From assembly GCA_029881805.1 (NCBI GenBank), contig JAOULW010000007.1, positions 1-64,000 of the forward strand: 64,000 nucleotides of DNA, given 5' to 3'. Below, in pieces: positions 36,569 to 37,675 of the stretch. This DNA comes from Candidatus Bathyarchaeota archaeon (GTDB lineage Archaea; Thermoproteota; Bathyarchaeia; Bathyarchaeales; Bathycorpusculaceae). Made by a program: the position numbers and the translations under genes. The notes below the pieces were generated by a model, which saw only the letters and a program-made list of their open reading frames with translations, was not told the DNA's origin and did no database searches. The stretch's first letter is position 1, and each line of letters begins with the position of its first letter.

Positions 36569-37060
36569 TTGTATATCCCAAATGTTTCGGTTAAGGTTGA
36601 GATCACTAGTTTGGTAGGGGTCAAACTGGATGCCAAGAGCCGGGCAGAAACTGTCAATTTTGATGTTAGGGCAAAGCTTGAGGAACGGGAACGTAAAAGC
36701 CAAGCACTCATCATAGGGTTCAACTTGCTTTTAACGACAAAGCCAAGTTTCGTAAGATTTGAGGTTGAAGGCAGGACCACATTGACAGGAAAAGATACAG
36801 AACTAAACAAAATGTTAGAGGTCGACCCTGACACAAAAGTGCCATATGTGTTTCAAAGAATTTACCAGCAAGCCTTTACAGCGATGTATCTTCTATCAAC
36901 AATTCTGAACGTTCCTCCGCCACCTCAGGATTTGCTGTTTCCCAAAAAGCAAGGAGCTTCAGCTGAAGATGTAGAAGTAGAAGTTGAAGCCCCAGAGGCT
37001 GTGGTTGTTCAAGCCCAACCGGAAAAAGATACAAGCGAAGTGGGCATTCCCAACAAATAG
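36569..37060 (+). CDS. SecB-like chaperone-fold protein
   Basis: A 163-residue protein. Residues 1-115 fit the SecB topology: four beta strands, ending in VPYVFQRIYQQAFTAMYLLS and the following PPPPQDLLFP, which recall SecB's final helices and proline-rich turn. The last 40 residues are a low-complexity acidic tail (DVEVEVEAPEAVVVQAQPEK). A role in holding unfolded proteins is plausible. The assignment is tentative. Confidence 0.45.
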   Translation: MYIPNVSVKVEITSLVGVKLDAKSRAETVNFDVRAKLEERERKSQALIIGFNLLLTTKPSFVRFEVEGRTTLTGKDTELNKMLEVDPDTKVPYVFQRIYQQAFTAMYLLSTILNVPPPPQDLLFPKKQGASAEDVEVEVEAPEAVVVQAQPEKDTSEVGIPNK

Positions 37061-37084
37061 TTTTCAGTAACATTTAATAGCCTA

Positions 37085-37168
37085 GAGTGATGTGCATAGC
37101 AGTTGTTGGCGGGTGAGTGGACCTCCACCCGTTCCGCCATAATAAACCCCGGCGTAGGAGGTGGAAAG
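37085..37168 (+). promoter_or_regulatory. Structured 5' leader of queT with anti-Shine-Dalgarno (candidate riboswitch)
   Basis: Upstream of queT the leader holds a hairpin with GGCGG (37108-37112) pairing with CCGCC (37134-37138). Inside the hairpin, ACCTCC (37121-37126) is perfectly complementary to the GGAGGT Shine-Dalgarno (37157-37162), and CCACC (37125-37129) to GGTGG. This would be an H-type pseudoknot hiding the ribosome-binding site. An A-rich linker ATAATAAAC lies between. In bacteria, queT-family genes are controlled by preQ1 riboswitches that work in this way. The pairing is seen directly; ligand binding is inferred. Confidence 0.5.
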
Positions 37169-37675
37169 TTGAAACTTGGCACGAGAGACATAGCATTAAC
37201 AGCGATTTTCGCAAGTTTGTATGCTGTTCTTGTTGTCACCTTGTCGAGTATTAGCTTTGAACTCGTCCAAATAAGAGTTGCAGACGCTCTAATTCCTTTG
37301 TCCATTGTGTTCGGGTGGCCAGTAGCGGCTGGTGTTACGATTGGTGGAGCCATAGCTAATGTTGTTAGTCCCATGCCAAGTATCATTACGGATGTTACGT
37401 TGGGCTCTCTAGCGAATCTTATCGCGAGCATTATAGCCTGGAAAATAGGTCTCTTGAAACTGAAGAACAAAATTCTGAGCGAGTTTCTTGGGTGCGTGAC
37501 CGCAACTGCTATTATAACCTTTATTGTTGGAACCTATTTGGCGATGTTGACTGAAATGGAACTATGGATCTGGTGGTTAGGCATAGGAGTTGGCTCAACA
37601 ATCAGCATCACCATTTTTGGATATGCTTTGGTTCAGGTAATGAAAAGATTGTCAAGTAAAACAAGTGTTACATGA
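37169..37675 (+). CDS. queT: QueT-family transporter (queuosine precursor uptake, ECF S-component)
   Basis: A protein of 168 residues from TTG 37169, 6 nt after GGAGGTG. Five to six hydrophobic segments are present: ALTAIFASLYAVLVVTLSS, VADALIPLSIVFGWPVAAG, ANVVSPMPSIITDVTLGSLA, then two more. This is the QueT pattern, a substrate-binding membrane subunit for preQ0/preQ1 or queuine. A longer frame back to 37103 would run through the leader hairpin and is unlikely. Its 3' end overlaps polB by 8 nt on the opposite strand. Confidence 0.85.
   Translation: MKLGTRDIALTAIFASLYAVLVVTLSSISFELVQIRVADALIPLSIVFGWPVAAGVTIGGAIANVVSPMPSIITDVTLGSLANLIASIIAWKIGLLKLKNKILSEFLGCVTATAIITFIVGTYLAMLTEMELWIWWLGIGVGSTISITIFGYALVQVMKRLSSKTSVT

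Follow-up and report, generated by a model that had tools for sequence, protein, structure and literature searches.

A candidate riboswitch class, probably sensing preQ0, in the leaders of archaeal queT and queC genes

The leader of a queT gene from a Candidatus Bathyarchaeota archaeon carries a compact 55-nt element, which recurs in many uncultured archaea and probably represents a new class of translation-off riboswitches in archaea that would bind preQ0 and exert feedback control on queT and queC. Comparison with related genomes shows a conserved RNA, its base pairs, the pairing with the Shine-Dalgarno (SD) sequence, the position of the promoter and the association with particular genes; we infer ligand binding, the identity of the ligand and the sign of the response.

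Within the window, that is, the whole stretch of 64,000 nucleotides analyzed here, the element proper occupies about positions 37108–37162, inside the range of 37085–37168 given by the initial annotation, and its leader follows a hypothetical ORF that ends at 37060 (Table 1). The GGCGG/CCGCC hairpin described in that annotation is present as P1, and the complementarity it had noted between ACCTCC in the loop and the SD GGAGGT amounts to six contiguous Watson-Crick pairs in the window sequence. The last G of the P2 strand GUG competes with this pseudoknot for C37126. The downstream gene indeed encodes an archaeal QueT, the substrate-binding (S) component of an ECF transporter.

Table 1. Positions of the leader features in the window and of related loci (L numbers) in other genomes
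Feature	Position	Strand	Basis
TATA box TTTAATA, queT leader	37073–37079	+	sequence; AT peak in aligned relatives
Transcription start, queT leader	expected near 37100–37106	+	normal archaeal spacing
P1 5′ strand GGCGG	37108–37112	+	two-sided changes in relatives
Short P2 5′ strand GUG (partner CAC, 37126–37128)	37113–37115	+	pair conservation
Anti-SD loop strand ACCUCC, pseudoknot	37121–37126	+	varies with the SD across species
CCGUU, nearly invariant bulge separating P2 from P1 3′ strand	37129–37133	+	conservation
P1 3′ strand CCGCC	37134–37138	+	two-sided changes in relatives
Linker core AAACCCCGG, called invariant	37144–37152	+	conservation
SD GGAGGU, pseudoknot 3′ strand	37157–37162	+	sequence, comparison with relatives
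queT, TTG start, presumed regulated gene	37169–37675	+	PF06177, E=1.1e-24
230-aa membrane protein behind the element	L172:175–870, L193:162–872; also L176, L205, L206, L211, L218, L224		
Distant relative	L241:177–893		
Second queT leader	L002:1944–2013; L042:550–619	-	
Second queT leader	L013:1419–1488; L019:1421–1490; L035:520–589		

Minimum-free-energy folding of the single leader sequence gave no better result than shuffled sequences (z=+0.53). Because of this, one sequence by itself is no proof of a structure, and the proof comes from comparison. A search for QueT covered 91 genomes of the host's family within the Bathyarchaeia, and the leaders of the genes were then read; the same element lies 5′ of 73 of the QueT genes examined. 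In these 73 leaders, 99.3% of the cells assigned to P1, P2, the CCG/CGG pairing and the loop-SD helix are paired, compared with 95.4% in shuffles. This whole-structure value was reached by 0 of 500 shuffles, and sliding by one column left at most 58%. Pairing per helix was 99.2% for P1, 100% for the two counted P2 pairs and 98.6% for loop-SD. The covariation score was 0.187 versus 0.112 in shuffles, again reached by 0 of 500; columns 33/79 of the family alignment, for example, are occupied by CG in 36 and by UA in 34 cases. P1 shows several compensatory types in relatives: GGCGC/GCGCC (19 cases), AGCGG/CCGCU (14), CGCGG/CCGCG, UGCGG/CCGCA and GACGG/CCGUC. The two outer pairs of P2 are formed in all family members, one of them varying from G-C to G-U; P2 is not retained in the most divergent instances of the element. 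The initial annotation had made its proposal depend on covariation in homologous leaders, which is strong.

The pairing of CCG with CGG was also considered as a general feature and was rejected: it does not vary among the family members, yet distant families have lost CGG. The variants in question (L158–L161, L232, L233) carry CCCCAAAA in place of CCCGG directly 5′ of the SD.

The most strongly supported interaction is, judged by comparison of sequences, the pairing between loop and SD. Among 181 instances of the element, 176 can form a loop-SD helix of at least 5 bp, with a mean of 6.7 bp versus 4.8 bp with shuffled loops. A simple swap test inside one family gave a weak difference (6.33 vs 5.95 bp) and was replaced by a contrast controlled by the QueT protein tree. 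Since related sequences inflate such counts, 84 disjoint nearest pairs of relatives with different SDs were taken from this tree, and each leader's own loop-SD duplex was compared with the crossed one. The own duplex was more stable in 54 pairs and less stable in 13, with the remaining 17 tied (sign test p=2e-7; Wilcoxon p=2e-8). Loop and SD have changed together even where the SD is rare, as in GCUCCG with CGGAGC (L233) and CAUCUCC with GGAGAUG (L141); further examples are GCCCCC with GGGGGC (L158), CCCUCU with AGAGGG (L147) and, as read from the alignment, UUUCCGA with UCGGAAA (L231), a locus where the automatic helix count had set its anchor wrongly. The earlier suggestion that a pseudoknot could hide the SD is borne out insofar as the pairing is conserved and covaries with the SD in relatives. 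A covarying, structured 5′ leader RNA, together with an expression platform in which the loop pairs and changes with the SD, is what is expected of a riboswitch, and the initial proposal of a riboswitch survives as a candidate. The strong support for the loop-SD pairing would also suit a ligand-free hairpin that sequesters the SD, or an RNA thermometer, but neither would need the near-invariant CCGUU and AAACCC or a restriction to preQ0 genes, and we consider this explanation very improbable.

Several segments of the core are nearly invariant without being needed for pairing. Positions conserved in at least 97% of the 181 instances include GCG and GU in the 5′ arm, CCG, a single U, CGC in the 3′ arm, and A.AAA.CCC; the linker is between 4 and 15 nt long. 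Within AAACCCCGG, AAACCC is kept nearly everywhere, and GG is missing from some distant families. The linker sequence ACCCC was tried as a rival anti-SD and rejected, since it does not change along with the SD. Nor does AAACCC follow the changes of the SD, and it is therefore not an anti-SD strand; it is more likely to be an element of a binding pocket, of which CCGUU is presumed to form a part. Conserved nucleotides of this kind would be equally useful to a protein, and a repressor bound to the pseudoknot could block the SD without any direct sensing of a metabolite. No candidate partner gene was found for such a repressor, however, and a compact 55-nt design with a conserved core, placed before genes for transport and synthesis, is what small metabolite riboswitches typically show, so that we regard a protein-binding leader as rather improbable.

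The position of the promoter agrees with an RNA element. An alignment of 178 instances revealed one sharp AT peak (0.79–0.92) at –34 to –28 relative to P1, preceded by BRE-like A-rich positions. With the TATA box 28–34 nt 5′ of the stem, transcripts should begin at the element, which therefore should form the 5′ end of the mRNA; from the usual archaeal spacing, the start would fall about five nucleotides 5′ of P1. A leader transcript, on which the initial annotation had also made its proposal depend, is thus predicted by a TATA box at a fixed distance. An inverted repeat this close to a promoter could in principle be an operator, bound as DNA by a transcription factor, but the element lies downstream of the expected transcription start, G-U pairs are tolerated, the linker length is variable and the pairing reaches the SD. 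Such an operator is therefore the least credible of the explanations considered here.

The spread of the element was searched inside the phylum Thermoproteota with a covariance model (R1) comprising P1, P2 and sequence, built from the family leaders. R1 matches were obtained in 78 of the 91 genomes in the host's family, and 185 of the 257 Bathyarchaeia genomes had one; genomes from other classes of the phylum also yielded matches. One strict pattern gave no hit in viral contigs. The element is placed 5′ of queT or queC. For 37 of the 44 clear queC matches of the family, which include some fragments, it lies on the same strand, under 1 kb upstream. The gene order in these loci is mostly element-queT-queC; in G060, G061 and G063 it is element-queC-queT, so that the element directly precedes queC. 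Outside the family, queC lies near the element in 18 of 80 fetched flanks. The identity of QueC is supported by TIGR00364 scores over the cut-off in two examples from other families and by PF06508. Four claims of the initial annotation stand, namely the candidate riboswitch, the SD hidden by a pseudoknot, the archaeal queT and the possibly new class, but it had missed the association with queC, the conserved CCGUU and AAACCC and the wide occurrence of the element in the phylum.

In two loci (L199, G105:C44; L127, G003:C37), the element is kept and the queT-like gene behind it seems, in the assembly, to be interrupted by a frameshift or a stop codon. A second group of QueT-like paralogues (L086–L092; N-terminus MLDL..MWKxPKMIA) is without such a leader and perhaps has another substrate.

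The host genome encodes the archaeosine-type TgtA, which uses preQ0 by established biochemistry. No QueD, QueF or QueC was found in it (the best QueC match, E 5.7e-5, was taken as an off-target ATP-binding match). With TgtA present and QueC, QueD and QueF absent, preQ0 would therefore have to be imported. The organism appears to salvage preQ0, and QueT would be the natural importer, although the substrate specificity of QueT in archaea is itself predicted. preQ0 is the precursor of archaeosine, and archaeal salvage is likely (PMC5372724). Of the element-bearing genomes of the family, 39 contain queC and 39 do not. This half without queC, dependent on QueT imports, would also fit a riboswitch for another 7-deazaguanine or purine, such as preQ1, queuine, the free archaeosine base or guanine. 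The host, however, possesses a preQ0-using TgtA and no QueF, and queC makes preQ0. preQ1 is not known as an intermediate in archaea. We consider another ligand unlikely, even though bacterial QueT is predicted to carry preQ1 (PMC5372724).

For the preferred reading, a preQ0 riboswitch, we propose the following mechanism. The element would act in cis from the start of the queT mRNA, as a leader in which P1 and the short P2 present the loop, and pairing of the loop with the SD would close an H-type pseudoknot. CCGUU and the A-rich AAACCC probably shape the binding pocket. At high levels, the ligand, most likely preQ0 (free 7-cyano-7-deazaguanine), would stabilize the pseudoknot and hide the SD, so that queT, the uptake gene, and any queC that follows it would be translated less; when the ligand is scarce, the SD would be freed.

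The element was compared with known systems. Rfam 15, applied to the whole window at the gathering score, gave no match at the element, and the Rfam preQ1 models found none at E up to 10 in 401 and 81 nt around it, nor in the relatives L008, L018, L053, L064 and L079. The comparison with preQ1-I, II and III proposed in the initial annotation therefore revealed no relation, and its suggestion of a possibly new class remains standing. A position 5′ of queuosine-precursor genes, as in the preQ1 classes, was found here for queT and queC. The preQ1-II riboswitch (RF01054, COG4708 motif) occurs 5′ of bacterial queT and controls translation through a pseudoknot that engages the SD, as proposed for the archaeal element. 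The archaeal element differs from it in core sequence, in its archaeal hosts, in its additional position 5′ of queC and in its likely ligand, preQ0, and 81 nt around it gave no match to the model even with E raised to 10. With preQ1-I (RF00522) it shares a small H-type pseudoknot, an A-rich linker and the presumed control of que genes, but it has an extra P2, its SD pairs with the hairpin loop and the Rfam model does not match. preQ1-III, the third bacterial preQ1 class, also forms a pseudoknot near the SD, but is much longer and gave no Rfam match. The fluoride (crcB) riboswitch of Thermococcus kodakarensis is likewise archaeal with presumed translational control, but is unrelated in ligand, genes and sequence; in 2021, it was named as the only natural archaeal riboswitch with experimental proof (PMC8241225). 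No earlier description of the element was found in the open-access literature. The element may well work like bacterial preQ1-II, but it matches no preQ1 family model, and we have filed it as a putative new class. That this class, known from archaea only, is dedicated to preQ0, would be the first with preQ0 as its natural ligand and would join the very few natural riboswitches of archaea, with members across the Bathyarchaeia and several other classes of Thermoproteota, seems to us somewhat better than an even bet.

A second, unrelated queT leader RNA, GGUAGUUUCCGUAUAUAACCUACCUUAAAAAACCCGG, was observed at five loci of two genera. It looks like an H-type pseudoknot with an A-rich linker and a C 5′ of the 3′ stem strand, reminiscent of preQ1-I, and has no match in Rfam. 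It replaces the main element in G005, G008, G015 and G016, where the latter is absent, and G032 carries both. Family f10 and G535 have the main element 5′ of a gene for a 230-aa membrane protein, for which Pfam, NCBIfam and PDB offered no convincing relative and which is probably an unrecognized 7-deazaguanine transporter.

Few riboswitches are known in archaea. If our interpretation is correct, a riboswitch class would precede the archaeosine-precursor genes in about 70% of genomes from an archaeal class that is abundant worldwide, and control by small molecules acting on RNA would be routine in these organisms. It would also provide a first view of how archaea regulate the uptake and synthesis of preQ0, and the leader RNA could be used to name unknown transporters.
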